The position numbers and the translations under genes are program-made. Shown here in pieces: positions 26,981 to 41,953 of a DNA stretch of 56,913 bases. Positions within the stretch are counted from its first letter, which is position 1; every line of letters begins with the position of its first letter. The notes under the pieces are model-generated. The model made no database searches, was not told where the DNA came from, and was given only the letters and a program-made list of their open reading frames with translations. The stretch comes from Actinomycetes bacterium (GTDB lineage Bacteria; Actinomycetota; CALGFH01): positions 1 to 56,913 of the forward strand of contig DASYUT010000089.1 of assembly GCA_036000965.1 (NCBI GenBank), given 5' to 3'.

Positions 26981-28507
26981 TCACGGTCTCATGTCTGCGA
27001 CTGCCGCCGGTGCGGCATCGGGAGCGGTGCCGAAGATGCGCCAATAGGAGTCTTCGCCATAGCTGGTCGGCAGTGGTTCGCCTTCGACAAGCCGGAACGT
27101 GCGCCGACCGTCGGGCTGCCTTTCAGCGCGAAGGAAGAGAGCCGTGTCTAGTTCTTGGAGGTAGAACCCTTGCGCGAGGTCGAAAAGGTGAGTGACGAAG
27201 AAGACCTTAATGCCGGCTTCGATCAGTGCACGGACGACTTGCCGCGCGATTTCGGAGCCCTCTCTCTCGTTTGTCGCTGCGAACGACTCGTTGCACAGCA
27301 ACATGCAGTTTGGAGTTATCTTGTCGGCGATGTCGCTCATCCTGCTGAGCTCTTCATCGAGTTTGCCGCTCTTCATGGTGGCGTCTTCTTCTCGCTTGTA
27401 GTGCGTGAAGATGCCGTCGCAGACATTGGCGCTGAAGGATTCCGCCGCCACGAACATCCCACATTGCATCGTCAGTTGCGCCAAGCCTACGCCGCGCAGG
27501 AACGTCGACTTCCCCCCCTGGTTAGCGCCAGTGATCATTCCAAGCCATTTGTTCTCCGCGTTCACATCGTTGCCAACGACTCGCTCTTCCAGGTTCAGCG
27601 TGAGACAGACGTCGTAGAGTCCCTGAGCGGAAAGCGCGGCCTGGCCCCGAGCTAGGGGCACGGGGAAGCACGTTGGCTCGCCCTTCTCCGCAAGCCGCCC
27701 GTGCAAGTTCAGGCAACCGATATAGAAGCCCAGCTCCGTCCGCAACATGATGAAGAAGCTTAGAATGTGGTCGGCCGATTGAGCGAGCGCGTTGGCAACG
27801 AGGTTGATCCCTTTCCCTCGCAGCTCCGACAAAGCATGGAAACCGTTTTCGTCACGATCCGAGATTTGGAAGCTGTAGCCGGAGCGGGTCTTCGGAGAAA
27901 TCCGCTCCATCCAGCTCTGCTCCCGAGGTCTTCGCAGTACGTAGTGGATGCCTTTGTTGCCCTTGCCGAGCTGGGCGCTGATCAGCACGCCGCGTCGGAA
28001 CCTGAGCTCTCTTAGATGGTCTTCGACGGTCTCGAAGTACCCGTCGTCGAGTTCCTTCGCAAGCATCGCGAAGAAGCGCACGAATCCTTCCGACCGGAAC
28101 TTCTCCGTATGTTCGTCGGCGATCTTGCGCAGCCTCTTGAGGAACCCTACGAACAACTCCAGCACCTGCAGGGACCTGTTGAGGGTCGTGTCGGGTGAAC
28201 TCACGAACACGCCCCAGATCTTCTTCTCGCCTTGGATCGCCTCTACGGCGATCTCGTAAATCTCTCTCACAATGGACGACTGCTCGAGACAGTCAGCAAG
28301 AACGTGCTGGCGATAGACGATCGCCTCCGAGTCCGTCAGGGTCGACAGAACAGCCCTCCTGCCCACGTCGAACAGGAACTTGTCACCGAGGGCCATGGCG
28401 TTGAACAGCGTGTTCAGCTCAAGGTCCTGCGTCAGTGCTCCTTCGTTCGGTGGTAGCCCCCGCTGGAGGTCGAAATCCTCGTCTCCATGCATGAGGAAAG
28501 CCTTCAT
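26981..28507 (-). CDS. MutS-like ATPase, second of a pair
   Basis: A 508-residue protein with a C-terminal MutS-type ATPase domain: Walker A ITGANQGGKSTFLRGVGLAQ, then SGKLDEELSRMSDIADKI, a Walker-B-like MLLCNESFAATNEREG (Asn where MutS usually has Asp) and VFFVTHLFDLAQGF. The N-terminal 300 residues are helical, like a MutS core/lever region; no mismatch-binding domain with the Phe-x-Glu motif is seen. Its ATG overlaps the stop of the first MutS-like gene (ATGA). Base composition is clearly lower in GC (about 50-58% by eye) than the surroundings, suggesting transfer. mutS-type genes are known targets of fluoride riboswitches, and one lies upstream. Confidence 0.85.
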   Translation of the reverse strand: MKAFLMHGDEDFDLQRGLPPNEGALTQDLELNTLFNAMALGDKFLFDVGRRAVLSTLTDSEAIVYRQHVLADCLEQSSIVREIYEIAVEAIQGEKKIWGVFVSSPDTTLNRSLQVLELFVGFLKRLRKIADEHTEKFRSEGFVRFFAMLAKELDDGYFETVEDHLRELRFRRGVLISAQLGKGNKGIHYVLRRPREQSWMERISPKTRSGYSFQISDRDENGFHALSELRGKGINLVANALAQSADHILSFFIMLRTELGFYIGCLNLHGRLAEKGEPTCFPVPLARGQAALSAQGLYDVCLTLNLEERVVGNDVNAENKWLGMITGANQGGKSTFLRGVGLAQLTMQCGMFVAAESFSANVCDGIFTHYKREEDATMKSGKLDEELSRMSDIADKITPNCMLLCNESFAATNEREGSEIARQVVRALIEAGIKVFFVTHLFDLAQGFYLQELDTALFLRAERQPDGRRTFRLVEGEPLPTSYGEDSYWRIFGTAPDAAPAAVADMRP

Positions 28508-30039
28508 GGCGCGATGCGCCTCCTCAGCGACTCGTACGTGAGGCCGCACTTCTGGGCGATCGCGGCGGCGTAGGCGAGTCCGTCGGCAGGCTTTCTGACG
28601 ATCTTGTATGTCCGCACTGCGGGAGTATCGGGGACTACCGTGCTGACAATGCTGACGGTGGTCTCGCTGAGAGAAGCCAACTCGTCGACGAACGTCACGC
28701 ACACGCACAACGAGTCCAGCTTTATTATCTGCTTTATCACCTCCGTGCCGAGAACCAGAGCATCCCTCAGCGTCGTCGAGGTGAAGCTTTCGTTCATGAT
28801 GAGGATACTGTTGCTCGTTGCCTGCTGCAGGATGTCGTGAAGTCTTACCAACTCATCCTCGAGCTTCCCCCTGAGGGTCGCGAGGTCTTCCTCCTTCTCG
28901 AAGTGGGTGAACACCCGGTCGGGCAGAAACAGCCGCGCTTTCCTCCCCGGGACCGGATAGCCGAGGCTGGCGAGGTAATGCAGCTGGCCGAACATCCGCG
29001 CGAAGGTCGTCTTGCCACCCTGGTTCGGACCAGTGACCACGAAGATGCGCTCCGGGTCCTTCAGGAAGAAATCGTTGCACACCACGGCGGAGCGCTCGGG
29101 GACGAGCTTGTTGGCCAAGGCAAGATCGAATGCTTCATAGGCATAGACCTCCTTGGACCGAGCGGACACATGGGGGTAGCAAAACGGCAATCCCGCTGAC
29201 TTAAACCGCTCGATGTACTCAAGATACGCCAGATAGAACTGTACCTCGTGGTCGAAATTGCCAATCGTCTTAGCGAGGTAATTGCGGTGGCGAGCGCAGT
29301 ACTTGTCCAACGTCAGGAAGACGTCCGGATATAGTCGTGCAACTAAATCCAGTAGGCGAGCTTCAACGTGGTTCATGTCCGGCCAGTCGGGGAGCTTGAC
29401 CCGGTAGTCCTTCACGGCTCCCTGCTTGAACTTCGCGAATGTCTTCTCCACGTCTACGCTGTAGTCGGCTTCCCCGTCGTACTTGCTGACCTTGACCCGG
29501 TTCCCCCTGATGTGTACGCAATACTTCACCCTCGCGAGATCGTCCTTTAGCTTGTGCGTTTCGGCCGCAAGCGACTTGAAGCCGTCGGATGCCGTGTAGT
29601 CCGCGAGGTACTCGCGGAACGCCTGGAAGCCACGCGATGTCACCTCTAGAAGAGTGAGCTCCTCGGCCAGAGAGCTGACGGCGTCGCAATATATCTCCAC
29701 GGCGTCAAGAAACCAGCTCTCCTTCTGGTATGTGTAGTGGAGCTTCTCTGCTCGCGCGAGATGCTCGCGCATTGCCCAGATTTTGTGCGTGAATGCCCGT
29801 ATAGACTCGAACACTGCGTTCTTCTCGAGGTCGCGCAGTACTTCATGGCGATAGCGAACGGCTGCGACGTCGTGCAACGGAGCGTAGAAGAAGGGGTTGA
29901 GATCATATTCTTCGCGGCTGGCGATCATCGACTCCAGCACCTGATCGACATTCAAGTCGGCGAAAGAGGAGGGCTCTTCCCGCACATCGGTGTCGACGTT
30001 GCTGTCGGGCCGGTCGAAGAGGATGCTGGGGGATCGCAC
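28504..30039 (-). CDS. MutS-like ATPase, first of a pair
   Basis: A 511-residue protein related to the next one. The ATPase domain shows Walker A VVTGPNQGGKTTFARMFGQ, then THFEKEEDLATLRGKLEDEL, a B motif ILIMNESFTSTTLRDAL and VCVTFVDELASLSE. The N-terminal portion is helical (DLNVDQVLESMIASREEYDL, HDVAAVRYRHEVLRDLEKNA) and resembles a MutS core without mismatch-recognition domain. The start is GTG 30039 with AGGAGGTGA about 12 bases upstream. The two proteins probably form a heterodimer, since their genes overlap. Lower GC than neighbours. The fluoride aptamer at 30482 is the nearest upstream control element on this strand. Confidence 0.85.
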   Translation of the reverse strand: MRSPSILFDRPDSNVDTDVREEPSSFADLNVDQVLESMIASREEYDLNPFFYAPLHDVAAVRYRHEVLRDLEKNAVFESIRAFTHKIWAMREHLARAEKLHYTYQKESWFLDAVEIYCDAVSSLAEELTLLEVTSRGFQAFREYLADYTASDGFKSLAAETHKLKDDLARVKYCVHIRGNRVKVSKYDGEADYSVDVEKTFAKFKQGAVKDYRVKLPDWPDMNHVEARLLDLVARLYPDVFLTLDKYCARHRNYLAKTIGNFDHEVQFYLAYLEYIERFKSAGLPFCYPHVSARSKEVYAYEAFDLALANKLVPERSAVVCNDFFLKDPERIFVVTGPNQGGKTTFARMFGQLHYLASLGYPVPGRKARLFLPDRVFTHFEKEEDLATLRGKLEDELVRLHDILQQATSNSILIMNESFTSTTLRDALVLGTEVIKQIIKLDSLCVCVTFVDELASLSETTVSIVSTVVPDTPAVRTYKIVRKPADGLAYAAAIAQKCGLTYESLRRRIAP

Positions 30040-30481
30040 AGGAAGAGGTCACCTCCTGGCGCGATATGGGCGTGAGTGGCTCAGCTCGGACTTGCCCGCC
30101 CGTCCGGATGCGACGGGAACTACGGCGTGCAGCAGACCGCCGCTGAGAAACACCTCGGGAGAGCGACGCTCACCGGCGGACGGCTGACTAGGGGCGCCCG
30201 TCCCAGCCGTCTCAACCGCGCCGGAGGACACCGTTCTCCTGCCGTCAGCCAGGGGCGTTTCCCAGCGGCGACCACAGAGCGGCCGCGAGATCCGGCTCGA
30301 GACGAGCGTGAACCCGCAGCCGCGGCGTCGCATCGGCTTTCCACCCACACGGATCACCTCCGCCGAGCGGGAAGCTTCGACACGACGATCGCGGGCCGAG
30401 CCGATACGGCACCTGCCGGGATGGCGAGTCGAGGCCGAGGCGATCGCAGCGCGTCATCAGCTTCCACCGGTTCAGTCTTCC
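30040..30481 (-). other. long leader between fluoride aptamer and MutS-like genes
   Basis: About 440 bp separate the aptamer from the MutS-like pair. A GGAGGTGATCC site at about 30351-30361 would start a GTG frame of 76 codons (30120-30350), an Arg- and Ala-rich product of no known family; it may be a leader peptide or chance. At 30434-30451 there is an exact 18-base match to the central part of the aptamer at 31418-31460, a possible aptamer relic. Confidence 0.45.
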
Positions 30482-30530
30482 GTAGAAGCCATCAGCCGCT
30501 GCGGCGGTTCAGGCGGGCTTCATCGCCGTG
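30482..30530 (-). promoter_or_regulatory. fluoride riboswitch (crcB motif) 1
   Basis: The minus strand reads GGCGATGAAGCCCGCC, then TGAACCGCC, a 5-base loop and GGCTGATGGCTTCTAC. This has the parts of the fluoride aptamer: helix P1 (GGCG/CGCC) closing an ATGAAGC loop, the GCC/GGC stem before CTGATGG, and the pseudoknot GAAGC/GCTTC. CTTC-TACG-GAAG, overlapping its 3' end, could form the alternative hairpin. It faces the MutS-like pair. Confidence 0.9.
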
Positions 30531-30587
30531 GCGATTCTACCCCCTAGCGACACGCCTGCATCTCGGCCGAGGGAGCGCCGCCGGAAG

Positions 30588-30910: not shown

Positions 30911-31375
30911 TCACGCCCCGAGCTCCTCGATCAGCCGGTGGCGGAGGGCGAGGAGGTAGCCGGCTGAGGGGCCAAGGCCATGCAGCCGATGCCGCTGCAT
31001 CTCGATCCGCTCGGTCTGCGGGCGGTAGGAGAGATCGAGCGCGAGGCTGACCAGTTCGAGGTGATGGTCGAGGGTCGAAGCCAGGTCGTCAGCCAGCCAC
31101 GAGGGCAGGTTCAACGGCCGCAGCTCCTCGCGGAGCCGGCGGTAGGTGTCGCGCACCCTGCCACCCTCGGCTCCCAGGACACCCGTCTTGGCGTCGTCCT
31201 CTCGGCAGGCGCGGATGACCGCCTCGGCCACCGGGTGCAGCTCGATCGCCCGGTCCATGATCGACCACGCCTGCTGCAGGTGCCGGCGTGCCTCGTCCGG
31301 GTCCAGCGGTTGGACCCCTGCCGTCTCCTGGGCCGGTCCGTTGGATCGGCGGCGGAGCAGGGAGAACCGAGCCAT
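30911..31375 (-). CDS. fluoride-riboswitch-controlled protein of unknown family
   Basis: A 154-residue, probably all-helical protein starting at ATG 31375 after GAGGTGATGCGCC. Residues 25-105 carry the core AWSIMDRAIELHPVAEAVIR, EGGRVRDTYRRLREELRPLN and ASTLDHHLELVSLALDL. The same core is present in the protein at 37237-37788 (DLAERAVALQPAAETAIQLY, LDRHLHLVRLALE), so they are paralogs of a family I do not recognise. There is no signal peptide or membrane segment. The fluoride aptamer ends 43 bases before its start codon, so it should be induced by fluoride, probably at the translation step. Function unknown. Confidence 0.72.
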   Translation of the reverse strand: MARFSLLRRRSNGPAQETAGVQPLDPDEARRHLQQAWSIMDRAIELHPVAEAVIRACREDDAKTGVLGAEGGRVRDTYRRLREELRPLNLPSWLADDLASTLDHHLELVSLALDLSYRPQTERIEMQRHRLHGLGPSAGYLLALRHRLIEELGA

Positions 31376-31417
31376 GGCGCATCACCTCGTCATCCAGAAG
31401 CAGCCGTTCCTGCCTGC

Positions 31418-31460
31418 GCAGGAGCCATCAGCCGAGGCGATCGCAGCGAGCTCCATCGCT
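31418..31460 (-). promoter_or_regulatory. fluoride riboswitch (crcB motif) 2
   Basis: Minus strand: AGCGATGGAGCTCGCT, GCGATCGCC, TC, GGCTGATGGCTCCTGC. P1 is AGCG/CGCT, the pseudoknot GGAGC/GCTCC, and the second stem GCC/GGC with a very short loop. It lies just before the 154-aa gene. The following CCTGCGCAGG could form a competing hairpin with its 3' end. Confidence 0.9.
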
Positions 31461-31757
31461 GGTCGCGGTATCCGCGACGCGACCAGGATAGCAACGAGGG
31501 CCACGGGCGACGCGCCGCCCAGGTTCGAGCGGTACTCTGGACCAGCGGTGGTCCGCAAGCTCGACTGGTCCGGCCGGCGTCCGTGCGAGCCAGTCCAGCG
31601 ACGTGAAATCTGAACCCGCTCGATGCGTTCGTCGCGTCCTGGCGCCTATCCGTCGCCGCCAGACGAGGGATTCGAGAGTGCGCCGGCGACGTGCCGTCCG
31701 TACCGGCGGGTGGCCGATATGCTGCGTATGACCATGGCCCAGGACCGGAGGGGAGGC

Positions 31758-32957: not shown

Positions 32958-33968
32958 ATGCCGACCATGGAGCTTCGTCGCGTCGTGCTCACCGGCGAGC
33001 TGCTGCCCCCAGGTGAGGGCAACGAGCACGTCCCGACCAGCGTGGAGATCCGCTGGGATCCGCTCACCGGCCACGGCGCGCGGCTGGTCACCGGCAGTGG
33101 ACTGTTCCCGCCGAGCGACTTCGACCTGGCCGCGCTGGCCGAGGAGACCAGGGCCGGCTGCCCGTTCTGCCCGGACCGGATCGAGCAGGCTACCCCGCGG
33201 CTCGTACCCGCCATCGCCCCCGAGGGTCGTATCCGGCGCGGCCAGGCCGTGCTGTTCCCCAACCTGCTCACCTACGCGCCCCACAGCTCGGTCTCGGTCT
33301 ACTCCCCGTCCCTGCACTTCCTGCCCCTCGGGGCGATGACCCCGGTGCTCGTCGGCGACAACCTGGCCACCCAGGTGGCGTTCGCGGCCGCGGTGCTGCA
33401 GGCCGACCCGGCGGCGCGCTGGGTATCGGTCAACGCCAATCACATGCTCCCCTCGGGCAGCTCGCTGTACCACCCGCACCTGCAGGGCGCGGCCAGCCCC
33501 GTCCCGACCACCTTCCAGCGCCTGCTCGCCGAGATGCCGCCCGAGCGGTTCAACGACTACCTGGCGACCGAGCGTCGCGAGGGGCGCCGCCACCTCGGCT
33601 CCACCGGCAGCGTCGAGTGGCTGGCCAGCTTCGCGCCGCTCGGGCCGGGCGAGCTGCGGGCGTTTCTGCCTGGGGTGGTCTCCCCCGCCGAGCTCGGCCA
33701 AGACCGCGTCGCCGAGCTCGGCTGGGGGATCGCCACCGCCCTCAACCTGTATGCCGAGCTTGGCTTCGAGAGCTTCAACCTAGCCGTCTACGGCGCCCCA
33801 GCGGGCACCCCCGGCTACCTGCTGAACCTCCGGCTGGTGTGCCGCTCCAACCCGCGGCCGCTGTATCGCTCCGACGCCATGTACCTGGAGCGGCTGCACT
33901 GGGAGGCGGCGGTCGACATCACCCCAGAAGCACTCGCCGAGCGCGCAGGCGACCGGTTTCGCCACTGA
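32958..33968 (+). CDS. GalT-like nucleotidyltransferase (HIT superfamily)
   Basis: A 336-residue protein with the galactose-1-phosphate uridylyltransferase layout. A zinc-type motif CPFCPDRIEQATPRL lies near residue 70, then a FPNLLTYAPHSSVSVYSP segment, and the catalytic motif SLYHPHLQG, where GalT has HPHxQ with the nucleophilic second His. A C-terminal ELGFESFNLAVYGAP resembles the GalT domain duplication. The substrate could be another nucleotide sugar or sugar phosphate, as in ADP-glucose phosphorylase relatives. ATG 32958 is used; the ATG 3 codons later is also possible. It is downstream of the phosphodiesterase gene. Confidence 0.75.
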   Translation: MPTMELRRVVLTGELLPPGEGNEHVPTSVEIRWDPLTGHGARLVTGSGLFPPSDFDLAALAEETRAGCPFCPDRIEQATPRLVPAIAPEGRIRRGQAVLFPNLLTYAPHSSVSVYSPSLHFLPLGAMTPVLVGDNLATQVAFAAAVLQADPAARWVSVNANHMLPSGSSLYHPHLQGAASPVPTTFQRLLAEMPPERFNDYLATERREGRRHLGSTGSVEWLASFAPLGPGELRAFLPGVVSPAELGQDRVAELGWGIATALNLYAELGFESFNLAVYGAPAGTPGYLLNLRLVCRSNPRPLYRSDAMYLERLHWEAAVDITPEALAERAGDRFRH

Positions 33969-34358: not shown

Positions 34359-35582
34359 CTACCGGCCTGACCGGGCAGCTTGACCGGACCGAGGCCGCAG
34401 CCGGCCTCGAACGGCGAGCAGCAACGGCACGGCGGCGAGCTGGACCGCGACCGACACGCCGACCAGCGCGGCCAGCGAGCGGTCGTAGAGGACGCCGAGC
34501 AGGACGCTGCCGGCAAACCAACACACCCCGTAGCCGGCGTTGAAGATCCCATAGGCGCTGGCGCGTCGGTCGGGCGGGGTCATCGCGGCGACCGCCGCGC
34601 GCATCACCGACTCCTGCGACGCCATGCCTAGGCCCCAGAGGACCAGTCCCACCACTGCGAGCGGCGCGCGGCCGTAGAAGACCAGCGGCGCGAAGGCGGC
34701 CGCCGCCAGCGCGGCGCCGATCACGGCGGCGATGCCGACCCGGTCGAACAGCCGGCCTAGAGCGAGTGCGGCCAGCGCGTCCGCTCCCATGGCGATGGCG
34801 TAGAAGAGCGGGACGGCGCCGCCGGTGACCACGCCGGCCTGCTGGAAGTGGAAGGCGATCAGCGGGAAGTCCGCGAACCCGGCCGCGACCAAGCCGCTCG
34901 CGGCCAGGTAGAGCCAGAACACCCGCGGCAGCCCAGTCCCGGTCGGCCCGTCTTGCTCGTCGGCCTCGAACGTCCGCGGATTGGGATACTGGGTGCGGGC
35001 GGCGGCCACCACGGCCAGAGCGAGCCCAGCCGGCACGGCAAGCAGCACGAACCCGGCCCGGTAGCCGTGGTGGGTGGCCACCACCAGGGCGACCAGCAGC
35101 GGCCCGAGCACCGCGCCGACCTGGTCGAGCGCCTCGTGGAGGCCGAAGCCCCAGCCGCGCCCCAGCTGCGCGGCGGCGTGCGACAGCATCGCGTCGCGCG
35201 GGGGGACCCGGACGCCCTTGCCGATCCGCTCCGCGATCATGAGCGTCGCCGCAGCGGGCCAGTTGCCCGCGAGCGCCAGCAGCGGCACAGCGAGCAGGTT
35301 GACCGCATACCCGGCGATGGTCAACAGCCAGGTACGTCCGGTCCGCTCGCTGAGCCGGCCGCTGCCGAGGCGCACGGCATAGCCGACCAGCTCGCCGAAG
35401 CCGGCAACGGCGCCGACCACGGCGCCGCTGGCGCCGAGCATGGCCAGGAACGGGCCGGTGATGCTCCGGGCGCCCTCGTACGTGGTGTCGGCGAGCAAGC
35501 TGAGCACCCCGAGCAACACCACGAACCGGACGGCGCTGCGCCGCAGGCCGGCAGCGGCCGGGGCGGGGCTCGTCGAGGCCAT
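34359..35582 (-). CDS. MFS transporter under a fluoride riboswitch
   Basis: A 407-residue major facilitator with about 12 hydrophobic segments. The loop-2 motif is YAVRLGSGRLSERTGRTW (the family G-x-x-x-D/E-R-x-G-R-R-x type), followed by AERIGKGVRVPPRDAML and HEALDQVGAVLGPLLVA; the second half has ALGRLFDRVGIAA. This resembles the drug-exporter-like MFS subgroup. It starts at ATG 35582 after TAGGGGGACTCCA. The fluoride aptamer ends 24 bases before the start codon, so the transporter should be made when fluoride is high. It is a candidate fluoride-efflux or fluoride-stress transporter; the substrate is inferred from control only. A fragment of a related transporter lies at 41717-41953. Confidence 0.88.
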   Translation of the reverse strand: MASTSPAPAAAGLRRSAVRFVVLLGVLSLLADTTYEGARSITGPFLAMLGASGAVVGAVAGFGELVGYAVRLGSGRLSERTGRTWLLTIAGYAVNLLAVPLLALAGNWPAAATLMIAERIGKGVRVPPRDAMLSHAAAQLGRGWGFGLHEALDQVGAVLGPLLVALVVATHHGYRAGFVLLAVPAGLALAVVAAARTQYPNPRTFEADEQDGPTGTGLPRVFWLYLAASGLVAAGFADFPLIAFHFQQAGVVTGGAVPLFYAIAMGADALAALALGRLFDRVGIAAVIGAALAAAAFAPLVFYGRAPLAVVGLVLWGLGMASQESVMRAAVAAMTPPDRRASAYGIFNAGYGVCWFAGSVLLGVLYDRSLAALVGVSVAVQLAAVPLLLAVRGRLRPRSGQAARSGR

Positions 35583-35606
35583 TGGAGTCCCCCTACGTCG
35601 AGCCGA

Positions 35607-35650
35607 CAGGAGCCATCAGCCGGACGGCGGTTGCGGGAGCTCCATCCCTC
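35607..35650 (-). promoter_or_regulatory. fluoride riboswitch (crcB motif) 3
   Basis: Minus strand: GAGGGATGGAGCTCCC, GCAACCGCC, GTCC, GGCTGATGGCTCCTG. P1 is GGGA/TCCC, the pseudoknot GGAGC/GCTCC, the inner stem GCC/GGC, and the AACCGCC segment matches the family consensus. The 3' end is 24 bases from the MFS start codon, so the GGGGG ribosome site is probably the controlled element. Confidence 0.92.
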
Positions 35651-35972: not shown

Positions 35973-36705
35973 TCACTCGCTTGCGGGAAGGCCTGTCTGC
36001 TGCGCCGGAGCCTTGAGGCTGCGCTCGTCGTCGGCACCGAAGCTGGTTGCAGGTCCCATCCTGGGGGTGAAGAACCGCTGCGCGATCGCGGTGGGGACGA
36101 TCGCGGTGAGCACGACTACGCTTACCAGCACCGAGAACTGCGCGCGGGTGATGATCCCGGCGTTCAGCCCGTAGGTCGCTGAGATCGTGCCGAAGGTGAG
36201 CCCGGTGCTCATCAGCAGGGTGAGGTAGGTGGCGTGGTCACGGGCGTGGCGGCGGGCAAGCGGGTACACGCCGAGGAAACTTCCCAGCGACCTTGACAGC
36301 CAGGAACAGGGCGAGCAGCCCAAGGTTGGCCCACACGGCGCCGAGCGAGACGTTCATGCCCGAGCGGATGAAGAAGAACGGCGTCAGCAGGGCGAAGGCG
36401 ATGACACGGAAGCGCTGCTGCTCGGCGCGGTGGCGCTCGAAGCTGCGGGCCAGGCCGAGACCGAGCAGGAACGCGGGCAGGACCGCGTGGCTCTGGGCCC
36501 GCTCCCCGAGATACATGAGCAGGAACAAGGCGGCGAACGCGCCCTTGAGCTCGGGCTCGATCACGCGGTTGCCGTAGCGGTGAAAGAACCAGCCCTCCAG
36601 CCGCGGCATCAGCCAAACGAGCAGGACCGACACCAGCACGAACGGGATCGTCCAGAGGTTGGGCTTGAGGAACAGCACCGAGAGGGTGGCGAAGGAGTGG
36701 GCCGA
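35973..36705 (-). pseudogene. CPA2-type cation/proton antiporter, 5'-truncated and frameshifted
   Basis: The frame from about 36705 reads HSFATLSVLFLKPNLWTIPF, VLVSVLLVWLMPRLEGWF, then YLGERAQSHAVLPAFLLGLG, the middle of a KefB/NhaP-like sodium/proton or potassium/proton antiporter. At the AAA run 36277-36279 one extra base shifts the frame; homology resumes with FLGVYPLARRHARDHATYLT and LTFGTISATYGLNAGIITRA to a stop at 35973. The N-terminal half is missing because the gene meets an inverted universal-stress fragment. Any 5' riboswitch would have been lost. Confidence 0.8.
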
Positions 36706-36925
36706 GGACGCGACCGCCTACGCCCGAGCGCATGGCGTCGCGATGCAGACGGTGATCCGGGCCGGCCACCCGGCCCAGGAGATCGTCCGGGCAGCCGCCG
36801 AGCAGGAGGCCGACCTCATCGTTCTTGGCCACAGCGGCCATTCGGCTGTCTGGGGCCGCTTCCTCGGCACCACGGCCGAGAAGGTCAGCCGGCACGCGAC
36901 CTGCTCGGTGCTGATCGTCCGCTGA
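36686..36925 (+). pseudogene. universal stress protein A family, C-terminal half
   Basis: It reads EDATAYARAHGVAMQTVIRA, GHPAQEIVRAAAEQEADLIV, LGHSGHSAVWGRFLGTTAEK and VSRHATCSVLIVR. The ATP-binding signature of UspA proteins, G-x2-G-x9-G-(S/T), appears as GHSG...GTT. The N-terminal strand with its conserved Asp is missing, and upstream DNA belongs to an antiporter in the opposite direction, so two genes are fused head to head near 36690. An in-frame ATG at 36659 lies in antiporter antisense. Confidence 0.75.
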
Positions 36926-37236: not shown

Positions 37237-37788
37237 CTACAGGCGCCCTCCGGCCGGGAGGTCGGTAACTGCCCGGCCGGCGATCCGTAATGTCCGCCGG
37301 AGCAGGTCGCGGACTCCGACGAGGTCACCGGCGGCCTGCCCGAGCCCGGCCGGAGGAGGCCAGCGCCCGGCCGCGCCGCTGGCTGGCGGCTCGACCGTTT
37401 CCAGCGCGAGGCGGACGAGGTGCAGGTGCCGGTCCAGCAGCATGGCGAGGATCGCGCCGATGGGGTGGTCGACGTCAACGGAGCGGAGCCGCTCGCCGAG
37501 TGCCAGGTAGGCCTCGGCCACCCGTCGCCCCTCCTCGGTCATGGCGGTCGTCGGCGGCCGGTCGAGGCGGTAGAGCTGGATGGCCGTCTCGGCTGCGGGC
37601 TGCAGGGCGACCGCCCGCTCGGCGAGGTCAAGGACGGCGTCCCGCGCCGCGGGTTCGGCTTGTGCCCACTGGGCGACGGAACGTTCCGGCGTAGGGGTTC
37701 CTCCTTCGGCCTGGTCGGGCGCAGGGGCGCTGCGTTGCCATGGTATCGGCTGGCCGGTAGGGGTGAGCCGCTGTTGCCTGACCGCCAA
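37237..37788 (-). CDS. paralog of the fluoride-controlled 154-aa protein
   Basis: About 183 codons from TTG 37788; the true start is unclear because the upstream DNA belongs to an inverted fragment. The helical core VLDLAERAVALQPAAETAIQ, EEGRRVAEAYLALGERLRSV and AMLLDRHLHLVRLALETV aligns with the 154-aa protein at 30911-31375, at roughly one third identity by eye. The C-terminus (GQAAGDLVGVRDLLRRTLRI) also corresponds. The N-terminal 35 residues look non-native. No aptamer directly precedes it; the nearest on this strand is at 38283. Family unknown. Confidence 0.6.
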   Translation of the reverse strand: MAVRQQRLTPTGQPIPWQRSAPAPDQAEGGTPTPERSVAQWAQAEPAARDAVLDLAERAVALQPAAETAIQLYRLDRPPTTAMTEEGRRVAEAYLALGERLRSVDVDHPIGAILAMLLDRHLHLVRLALETVEPPASGAAGRWPPPAGLGQAAGDLVGVRDLLRRTLRIAGRAVTDLPAGGRL

Positions 37789-38252: not shown

Positions 38253-38282
38253 CTCTGCCCTTCCGGAGTTGGCCCACTGGGT

Positions 38283-38332
38283 GCAGGAGCCATCAGCCCG
38301 GACAGAGGGCGGTCGCAGCGAGCTCCATCGCT
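38283..38332 (-). promoter_or_regulatory. fluoride riboswitch (crcB motif) 4
   Basis: Minus strand: AGCGATGGAGCTCGCT, GCGACCGCCC, TCTGTCC, GGGCTGATGGCTCCTGCAC. P1 is AGCG/CGCT, the second stem is GCCC/GGGC, and the pseudoknot GGAGC/GCTCC. It is closely related to aptamer 2 over the 5' half. It precedes the small membrane protein start at 38252. Confidence 0.9.
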
Positions 38333-38369
38333 GGGAGCACAACGGTCAGGATGAGCAGAGAGCCCTCGA

Positions 38370-38612
38370 TCAAGAGGCCGGAGCGGCGGTCATGTCGGGG
38401 ATGTCGAGCCGCCCGAGGCGACGCTGCAGGCGGAGGTAGCCGACCATCACCTGATGGCCCTGAGCGGCAAGACGACCGGTCCGTGGGCCACCCAAGCTAC
38501 ATCCTTTGCATGAATGCCTCGGCGTGGGATTGCAGCCGGGCTGAAGCGGCGCAGCGGTACGCCGCGAGTGGTTGAAGCTTTCATCGCAGCTTTGTGCACC
38601 GTCGTCCGTCAC
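38370..38612 (-). CDS. 80-codon ORF behind aptamer 5
   Basis: A frame of 80 codons starts next to aptamer 5 and ends between aptamers 5 and 4. It is Cys-, Arg- and Pro-containing (CNPTPRHSCKGCSLGGPRTG, VMVGYLRLQRRLGRLDIPD) with no recognised family. A second possible start, ATG in AGGTGATGGTC near 38447, would give only about 25 residues. Its support is its position behind a riboswitch; the composition is not strongly gene-like. Confidence 0.3.
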   Translation of the reverse strand: MTDDGAQSCDESFNHSRRTAAPLQPGCNPTPRHSCKGCSLGGPRTGRLAAQGHQVMVGYLRLQRRLGRLDIPDMTAAPAS

Positions 38613-39582
38613 GGCGAGTCATCAGCCACCACGGGCGGCACGGGAGGCTCCATCCCCACAGCGGCTCTAAGGTCCGGTGCGTCACGGCTGCCCGCGCAAG
38701 CCTGCCCGGACCCGCGCGCCGGACCGCCGAGGAAGGCGTGGCCGTCCACCGCCGCGAACGCCCGCAGCCAGGCGTCGCCCTCCGGGCCTGACGGCTCGTG
38801 CCGTGTCGACCATCTCGACTTGCGATCCAGCTCGTCCAGCTCCCAGGTGAGGACGGCCAGGCGGGTCTGTGCCAGATCACGCGCCGGGCCTGCCAGCCCT
38901 CCTTCCAGGATTGCCGCGTGCCAGGCGCAGACGCCGTGCGAGCGGTCGTAGGCGGCACGCGTGCTCACGTCGCCGAGGCCGGCGCGCAGCAGCGCGGCCT
39001 GGCGGTCCTCGACCGTTCCGACCGCCCGGCAAGCCGTGCACGATGGCTGGTGCCGCAGCATGCCGCGGGCGTGCGCGACCGCCGCGGGGCGCGAGCGGAG
39101 CGCGTCACGCAGCGCGAGCGTGGCTCGGCGGCTCGCGCGGAGGCGGGGGGAGGATCGCGCGTGTGTCCGCCACGAGCGTGCGAGGTCCCGCAGCCGCCCG
39201 GTAGCGCCGGTCGTGGGGAGCCCCCGTCCAGTGCGGCGGCGAAGCGCTCCAGCTCGGCCTGCCACAGGGCTGCGTGCACGCGGGCCGTTGTAGCCCCCGC
39301 CTTGGCATCCACCTCGGCGAGGTCGCCGAGGTGACGCACGACGTTGACGGGGGCGGTGGACGCCAGCAGACGCCTGGTGTGGGCCGGGCACAGCCCGAGG
39401 GAGGCTCGCAGCTGCCCGGTGAGTTCTGGGAAGCTATATGACTCGGCCACGAACCAGAAGAACCAACGATCCTCGGCCTGCGCCAGCACGCCGCACAGCG
39501 GGCAGCCGTCGCGGGCGACCAGGCCCGCTAGCTCGCCCGCTGAACTCGCCACGCCCGCGCGCCGCCGCCGACGCCAGCTCAC
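38609..39582 (-). pseudogene. two-domain cysteine-motif protein behind a fluoride riboswitch, one frameshift
   Basis: From GTG 39582 the first frame reads LAGLVARDGCPLCGVLAQAE, DRWFFWFVAESYSFPELT, LCPAHTRRLLASTAPV and HAALWQAELERFAAALDGG. At the G run near 39221-39225 one indel shifts it; the next frame continues GRLRDLARSWRTHARSSPRL, HQPSCTACRAVGTVEDRQAA, RSHGVCAWHAAILEGGLAGP to 38609. Each half has a C-x2-C motif followed by a C-x2-H motif, so the protein is a duplicated zinc- or iron-binding-like domain of about 320 residues. This resembles DUF6062-like CPLC proteins, uncertainly. It is coupled to a 22-codon leader (GTGA overlap) behind aptamer 6. A paralogous C-terminal fragment is at 37795. 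Confidence 0.68.
38613..38657 (-). promoter_or_regulatory. fluoride riboswitch (crcB motif) 5, divergent
   Basis: Minus strand: GGGGATGGAGCCTCCC, GTGCCGCCC, GTGGT, GGCTGATGACTCGCC. P1 GGGA/TCCC and the stem GCC/GGC are kept, and CTGATGACTC is an allowed variant of CTGATGGCTC, but the pseudoknot is weakened to GAG/CTC. It overlaps the last codons of the cysteine-motif frame. It may be degenerate. Confidence 0.62.
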
Positions 39583-39647: not shown

Positions 39648-39680
39648 ACCCCTGCTCACTCGACGCCAGGTGGGACAGCA

Positions 39681-39729
39681 GGTAGAAGCCATCAGCGCAC
39701 GTGGCGCGGTCCAGGCGAGCCTCATCGCC
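39681..39729 (-). promoter_or_regulatory. fluoride riboswitch (crcB motif) 6
   Basis: Minus strand: GGCGATGAGGCTCGCC, TGGACCGCGCC, ACGT, GCGCTGATGGCTTCTACC. P1 GGCG/CGCC, second stem GCGC/GCGC, pseudoknot GAGGC/GCTTC with one G-T pair. It is 34 bases upstream of the leader ORF of the cysteine-motif gene. Confidence 0.9.
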
Positions 39730-40409
39730 ACGACCAGGATAGCGGCTGGCGCGTGGGCCGGGCAGGCCAGGGGAGGAATGCTGCTGCTCTGCTCGGTAAT
39801 TCTGGGCCGTGTCTGGCGATCAGCATCCTTCCAGCCAGCTCATCAGGGAGGCTCCCCGCGAGGCTATCATTGAGGTGCGGTCGCACCGGCCGCCCGGCGC
39901 TGGCCCCCGCCGGGACCGCCAACCACGAGCGGTCCAACCGCCGACCGGCCGATGGGTCCTGCCCTTCACGCGGGTGGCAGGAGGCGGGGTCGTGACGGGG
40001 TCGTGCATCTCAGTCTCCTACCAGGATCGGGCCTGCGGGCGCCCAGGCTGGCTGCCGTCCGACGGACACGACGAGGGCGTTGGTGCGCTCGGGTCGGCGC
40101 CGACCCTGGACGTGGACGTCCGGATCAGCCAGCCGCTGCTCGGGGCTCGGCACCGCTCCGGGGTCCCCGCTCGCGCCGATCCCATCCCCGCGCTGCTTCC
40201 GGCGATCCTGCGCTCGGTCACCGGCCCGACCACTGACCGGCTCCGGGTGGCCTTTACAACCCCCGCCGCTGCCCAAGACTTACCGCGGACAGTGGTCCCG
40301 CGCCGGACCGTCGGGCCGACCGACGGGTCGACCGCACTCGGCCAGCCTGCGATCCGGTGGATTCCACGCCTGGGATGTTCCCGGTCCCACGACCACCACG
40401 GGGTTGACG
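39730..40409. other. 680-bp stretch without a convincing gene
   Basis: A plus-strand frame (39809-40417) is open throughout and parts look protein-like (PTLDVDVRISQPLLGARHRS, LLPAILRSVTGPTTDRLRVA), but there is no ribosome site, no recognised family, and its end overlaps the next gene. The 18-mer GGCGGGGTCGTGACGGGG here (about 39981) also occurs at about 5309. The promoter of aptamer 6 (leftwards) and of the gene at 40410 (rightwards) should lie in this stretch. Confidence 0.4.
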
Positions 40410-41442: not shown

Positions 41443-41610
41443 CCCCCTCGGGGACTGAGATCGACGCGGCCTGGGCGACTGGCGAGCCGGCCCTGGCGGA
41501 CGGCGACCGGCTGACCTGAAGGGCCGTGCCGCCCGGATAGAGGTGAGGGACATGGGATCAGCCGAGGATCGGCTCCTGAGGCGTACAGCTTCCACCCCGT
41601 TCACCTTCGA

Positions 41611-41676
41611 GGTAGAAGCCATCAGTCCTGCTGGGCGACGAGCAAGGCGGCCGGGCCCGGGGCGGGCCTCATCGCC
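41611..41676 (-). promoter_or_regulatory. fluoride riboswitch (crcB motif) 7, extended and orphan
   Basis: Minus strand: GGCGATGAGGCCCGCC, then a longer insertion of about 33 bases, and GGACTGATGGCTTCTACC. P1 GGCG/CGCC and pseudoknot GAGGC/GCTTC are intact; the second stem is enlarged (possibly GTCGCCC with its partner, or GTCC/GGAC). No convincing minus-strand gene follows before the oppositely oriented gene ending at 41442, so its target seems to be lost. Confidence 0.75.
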
Positions 41677-41716
41677 TTCCAGCCGCCACCGCAACGTACA
41701 GGACCGGGACGGATCG

Positions 41717-41953
41717 TCAACGCGCCCCGACCCGGCCACCTTCTACCGGGGCCCGGGGTTCGGCCCGGGGTTCGGGTTGGTGGCGGTCACCCATGGGGTC
41801 GGCGGTGTCGTGGGTGGCCGGGTCGGGAGCGGCGGTGCGCAGCCGGGCCAACAACACCACCGCGGCCACGCCGGGGACGGCCAGCACCGCAAAGCCCAGC
41901 CGATAGCCGGAGACGGCCACCATGACGGCGACCAGTAGTGAGCCGAGCAGCTA
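41717..41953 (-). pseudogene. MFS transporter, internal fragment
   Basis: The frame LLGSLLVAVMVAVSGYRLGF, AVLAVPGVAAVVLLARLRTA, APDPATHDTADP corresponds to the segment VLGPLLVALVVATHHGYRAG, FVLLAVPAGLALAVVAAART of the MFS protein at 34359-35582. Only about one membrane pair of the transporter is left; before it is a truncated TMEM175-like gene, after it non-homologous DNA. It shows that the cluster once held a second related transporter. Confidence 0.65.

Follow-up and report, generated by a model that had tools for sequence, protein, structure and literature searches.

A conserved MFS transporter subfamily embedded in prokaryotic fluoride regulons and its possible role in fluoride export

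The bacterial fluoride exporters named in a 2024 review are Fluc and CLC-F only, and more than 85% of the strains surveyed there have one or the other (PMC11139923), so that up to about 15% of strains would have neither. Fluoride regulons also hold many genes that do not encode exporters (PMC11139923). Among the genes found next to fluoride riboswitches, which as a class act as ON switches (PMC2864571; PMC11139923), are mutS and formate hydrogenlyase genes (PMC2864571), genes for Na+/H+ antiporters (PMC11139923), and enolase, uspA, and crcB (PMC5533749). We found no MFS transporter as a target of the riboswitch in any of these three papers (PMC11139923, PMC2864571, and PMC5533749), and MFS proteins do not come up at all in PMC11139923; the founding gene list of 2012 may contain one. 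Here we describe a conserved MFS subfamily that, judged by comparison of sequences, is embedded in the fluoride regulons of prokaryotes and is represented at the locus under study by a gene lying directly behind a fluoride aptamer.

The window (the whole stretch of 56,913 nucleotides that was analyzed) is contig C89 of a 6.47-Mb genome that is 99% complete. Its right flank matches two genomes of the same family with up to 84% DNA identity, and we therefore assign the contig to the host lineage. The genome contains six fluoride aptamers, a number exceeded in only one (with seven) of 396 genomes of the phylum. All six are on the minus strand at 30.5–41.7 kb of the window, and two of them (rs2 and rs6) score below the cut-off of Rfam model RF01734. 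The first-pass annotation of this DNA had reported only the aptamer that precedes the MFS gene and omitted the other five.

The aptamers lead a varied set of genes, all likewise on the minus strand. Aptamer rs1 (30476–30536; 51.5 bits) precedes a pair of genes for MutS-like ATPases with MutS_V domains (28504–30039, PF00488 with E = 1.4e-17; and 26981–28708, E = 3.8e-19, the real start of which is probably internal). Aptamer rs2 (31412–31469; 32.9 bits, slightly below the gathering score) leads a gene for a 154-residue protein (30911–31375) for which a Pfam search returned no match, and rs4 (38277–38341; 39.4 bits) leads a diverged paralog of that gene (37237–37788; 183 residues, 34% identical). 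Aptamer rs5 (39676–39738; 38.2 bits) leads a frameshifted gene with cysteine motifs (38609–39582), present as two overlapping frames that resemble DUF6062 by eye and that have no Pfam match of their own. The last aptamer, rs6 (41606–41685), leads an ill-defined unit, has a long insert, and scores 24.0 bits with the Rfam model and 28.5 bits (E = 6e-8) with the custom model described below. A seventh, degenerate aptamer-like stretch (38616–38657, minus strand; 22.9 bits over model positions 10–52) resembles the MFS aptamer in its short P1 and has a broken pseudoknot strand. We also note a sub-threshold match to the microRNA mir-3155 on a strong GC-rich hairpin (33682–33731, plus strand), which is likely due to chance.

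The MFS gene (34359–35582) is led by aptamer rs3, which matches RF01734 at 35657–35600 with 34.1 bits against a cut-off of 34 (E = 1e-5). The score is barely above the cut-off because P1 is one pair short of the consensus; each arm has a deletion, and the stem still pairs. With its 3-bp P1 and a GGAGC/GCUCC pseudoknot, rs3 has the architecture of RF01734. A custom model made from 15 other aptamers, with rs3 itself left out, gave 44.6 bits (E = 3e-14 in 1.34 Mb), and in an alignment of 30 aptamers 99.3% of the cells in P1 and the pseudoknot were paired, 17 of them having changed on both sides. These results uphold the claim, made in the first-pass annotation, of a fluoride aptamer with an intact 407-codon MFS gene directly downstream. 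The gap of 24 bases given there between aptamer and start codon fits when counted, approximately, from the conserved CUCCUG core; measured from the end of the Rfam model, the ATG at 35582 lies 17 nucleotides downstream on the same strand. By analogy with the known riboswitch class, we infer that the leader would act as an ON switch. How it might do so was sought in alternative pairings of the 3' strand of the pseudoknot, which has a perfect downstream partner of 8–9 bp in only two of the six leaders, those of rs1 and rs6 (p = 0.004 each); in rs1 the alternative stem, GCUUCUAC/GUGGAAGC, is 8 bp long (p = 0.004). In the MFS leader the best such stem was no better than chance (p = 0.90). We thus rejected a common switch for all six aptamers based on pairing between the pseudoknot strand and the ribosome site, since such pairing was significant in rs1 and rs6 only.

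The product of the gene is, by its sequence, an MFS protein. The MFS_1 profile PF07690 matches residues 38–358, covering both halves (E = 3.7e-36), and an AlphaFold2 model (mean pLDDT 91.4, pTM 0.89) has the 12-helix MFS fold; a fold search with this model returned generic MFS carriers as the top PDB matches, and a sequence search against solved structures returned none. The Pfam search gave MFS_1 and a sub-cut-off match to ATG22, and no match to PF02537 (Fluc/CrcB) or to PF00654 (CLC-F). In the homolog sets that we assembled (57–81 homologs), 68 positions were invariant among 57 sequences, a count slightly inflated by the use of exact peptide seeds to find the homologs; they include D32, E36, R39, E64, E118, R119, R125, and D153. 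The conserved charged residues within helices (D32, E36, R39, E64, E118, R119, D153, and E324) would suit proton coupling. They are mostly kept in distant homologs that have no link to a riboswitch, and are therefore not a mark of fluoride and no proof of its transport; on this ground we rejected the set as a fluoride signature. Only D238, W355, and F356 look, and then faintly, more specific.

The association of the subfamily with fluoride emerges from its relatives, which we picked by similarity of the MFS protein alone, with no RNA input. Pairwise identity was 49–61% among the 56 relatives that were aligned. Within the best 80 of 224 loci from a scan of species genomes, the custom model found a fluoride aptamer within 10 kb of the gene in 43, whereas chance alone, at the phylum-wide rate (calculated with an estimated mean genome size of 2.9 Mb), would place about 0.14 aptamers in these loci, which total 1.28 Mb. 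On a quick tree, the linked loci are spread over Chloroflexota, Bacillota, Thermodesulfobacteriota, Nitrospirota, Pseudomonadota, Spirochaetota, Armatimonadota, and Bacteroidota, as well as Methanoperedens archaea. At 11 of the same best 80 loci, a credible aptamer lies directly upstream of the MFS gene, that is, on the same strand and within 400 nucleotides; a twelfth hit (L040, 17.8 bits) was without the GATG core and was dropped. Rfam's own model confirms three of the 11 at its cut-off (L078, L105, and L047). The others are variants in which the P3 region is long; a GAGGC/GCCUC pairing preserves the pseudoknot in most of them. Four (L051, L060, L071, and L044) have low scores (12.2–17.2 bits).

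Recurring neighbors of the MFS gene are the MutS pair, a cation/proton antiporter, a CBS protein, CrcB, enolase, formate hydrogenlyase, and DUF6062. Fluoride islands repeatedly encode cysteine-rich DUF6062 proteins and proteins with CBS domains (L100, L038, L114, L116, and others), often next to or right behind an aptamer. Short proteins resembling prenyltransferase alpha-alpha toroids are encoded directly behind fluoride aptamers and beside the MFS gene (L041:313-1137, L089, L101, and L080), both in Methanoperedens and in other MAGs. In three genomes of one genus (G130, G163, and G184), a distant homolog of the transporter (34% identity) lies about 0.4 kb from crcB, an arrangement that hints that a wider MFS clade is also tied to fluoride.

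A second line of evidence comes from whole genomes. Among the 396 genomes of the window's phylum, a fluoride riboswitch is present in all 11 that have a close homolog of the MFS protein (at least 47% identity and E < 1e-70), as compared to 90 of 396 overall (P = 5e-8); counted by genus, with the host's own genome excluded, the result is seven of seven (P = 1.6e-4). The aptamer and the MFS gene are at most about 3.5 kb apart in each of the 11. A few further genomes have shorter or more distant MFS matches, and most of these are without a riboswitch. The transporter does not behave as a substitute for crcB. Among the matches listed, it occurs in seven of 61 riboswitch genomes with crcB and in four of 29 without (p = 0.74), the latter set being subject to the caveat that draft genomes can miss genes, and 12 riboswitch genomes have neither crcB nor CLC nor the MFS gene. 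Three genomes of a single genus (96–99% complete) have the MFS gene and no CLC, and crcB was not found in them even at E ≤ 10; here the MFS gene does not follow an aptamer but lies just ahead of one, which in turn leads the MutS pair. In a fourth genome with the MFS gene, crcB is absent and CLC present.

The host itself has another candidate exporter. No crcB or CLC gene is to be seen in the window, as the first-pass annotation had noted in proposing the transporter as the best candidate for fluoride removal. Its recommendation to check the whole genome for both, however, turned up two adjacent, intact crcB genes on contig C104, and no CLC. The pair has the layout of a putative heterodimeric Fluc, and the genome-wide scan placed no aptamer in front of it. 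Contig C104 is host-like in tetranucleotide composition (0.991) and has several DNA matches to same-family genomes elsewhere along its length; on these grounds we rejected the idea that the MFS protein is the sole exporter. Of the two findings that the annotation had named as jointly counting against its proposal, no rescue of fluoride sensitivity and a canonical crcB elsewhere that accounts for resistance, the genome thus supplies half, in that a canonical crcB exists. What stands of the proposal is a transporter whose subfamily is tied to fluoride regulons across phyla and which is one candidate for export rather than the only one. Beside the crcB pair, in divergent orientation, is a third copy of the gene for the 154/183-residue protein (C104 6405–6959; L148), with 82% DNA identity to that at 37237–37788; this family of small proteins tracks fluoride genes in the host lineage.

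Our favored reading is that the gene encodes a fluoride-induced transporter of the fluoride-stress regulon, which plausibly exports fluoride, driven by protons, alongside the Fluc pair. Thus, a rise in cytoplasmic fluoride would cause the aptamer to bind the ion; the fluoride-bound aptamer would lock its pseudoknot and switch on synthesis of the transporter; and the transporter would use the proton gradient to export fluoride (as F-, or possibly as HF or a complex), acting alongside the Fluc (crcB) pair encoded elsewhere. Export as the direction, proton coupling, and fluoride as the substrate are what we infer. We give this reading a little under an even chance, because the exporter list of PMC11139923 does not include an MFS protein and because membership in a regulon does not by itself fix a substrate. 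Only tentatively, and as something rather unlikely, would we extend it to a third class of prokaryotic exporter: an induced, H+-coupled MFS carrier present in several phyla and in Methanoperedens, and, for at least one genus, the sole recognizable fluoride transporter.

Most MFS proteins transport organic solutes, and the folds nearest to that of the transporter are those of organic-anion or drug carriers. The protein could therefore belong to the fluoride regulon and yet have another cargo, such as a metabolite that builds up, or comes into demand, once fluoride has blocked enolase, pyrophosphatase, or other Mg-enzymes, or an ion that serves pH or phosphate balance, with Fluc exporting the fluoride. 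This account is a serious possibility, which we hold at distinctly less than an even chance. It would agree with the usual co-occurrence of the MFS gene with crcB and with the existence of other riboswitch-linked proteins that are not exporters, among them antiporters, pyrophosphatase, enolase, and phosphatases (PMC11139923; PMC5533749). It has more difficulty with the genus whose three genomes keep the MFS gene without crcB and CLC, and with the neighborhoods of the gene, in which no enzyme acting on a particular solute recurs beyond the general fluoride set.

Much of the island is in disrepair, and the aptamer and MFS gene could simply persist in it after strong selection had gone, as crcB took over. 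Between 35.9 and 42.2 kb are a truncated and frameshifted antiporter, a UspA gene, a TMEM175 gene, a second MFS gene, and the cysteine-motif ORFs, all broken, and a scan of two same-family genomes found no fluoride aptamers. The antiporter, of the CPA2 cation/proton type, is reduced to a C-terminal half in two frames (35973–36678, minus strand; PF00999 with E = 5.1e-12 and 8.7e-4); the C-terminal part of UspA (36662–36922, plus strand) abuts it in the opposite orientation, marking a rearrangement junction near 36680. A fragment of a second such transporter had been reported near 41717 and taken to mean that the gene was duplicated under the same pressure. The fragment exists (about 41960–41730, minus strand; 43% identity over 63 residues, E = 2e-9, corresponding to MFS residues 158–220). 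Duplication under a shared pressure is a weak interpretation of it, the copy being a diverged, truncated remnant fused, among other broken genes, to an N-terminal fragment of a TMEM175 potassium channel (42091–41966, minus strand), and lying upstream of rs6 rather than under an aptamer; it bears witness to turnover of the island, not to a useful duplication. Decay nonetheless seems an improbable account of the MFS gene itself, which is intact, as are both MutS-like ORFs, and keeps the residues invariant in its family; the loss of surrounding genes makes the retention of these ORFs all the sharper.

Finally, the idea of a general multidrug or stress pump beside which the aptamer lies incidentally, suggested by weak, sub-cut-off matches to NCBIfam tetracycline efflux models (NF012174, 32.1 bits against a membership cut-off of 475), is very improbable given the excess of aptamers over chance among the best 80 of the 224 loci and the persistence of the link across several phyla as well as in archaea.

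With its wide distribution and its tie to the riboswitch, the MFS subfamily offers a direct and cheap test for a third class of exporter, which, if real, would widen the set of tools for making fluoride-tolerant organisms for organofluorine work. If the cargo is not fluoride, its identity would indicate a new kind of physiological burden that fluoride imposes.

How, then, does the transporter compare with described systems? Its fold is common to NorA, OxlT, MCT1, and YajR of the MFS_1 family (TM-scores of roughly 0.6–0.8), with which it has merely 14–18% identity and none of which had a link to fluoride among our results. With Fluc/CrcB it shares regulons, and both are candidates for lowering cell fluoride; Fluc/CrcB, however, is a dual-topology channel with a domain of about 100 residues, whereas the MFS protein is a 12-helix carrier unrelated to it in sequence. 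The CLC-F fluoride/proton antiporter (PF00654) is unrelated in fold and family, and the analogy that we propose with it is that of proton-coupled export under a fluoride riboswitch. There is also a correspondence with the fluoride riboswitch regulon itself (RF01734), with which the locus and its relatives have in common both the aptamer class and the neighbors: mutS, formate hydrogenlyase, antiporters, enolase, uspA, and crcB.
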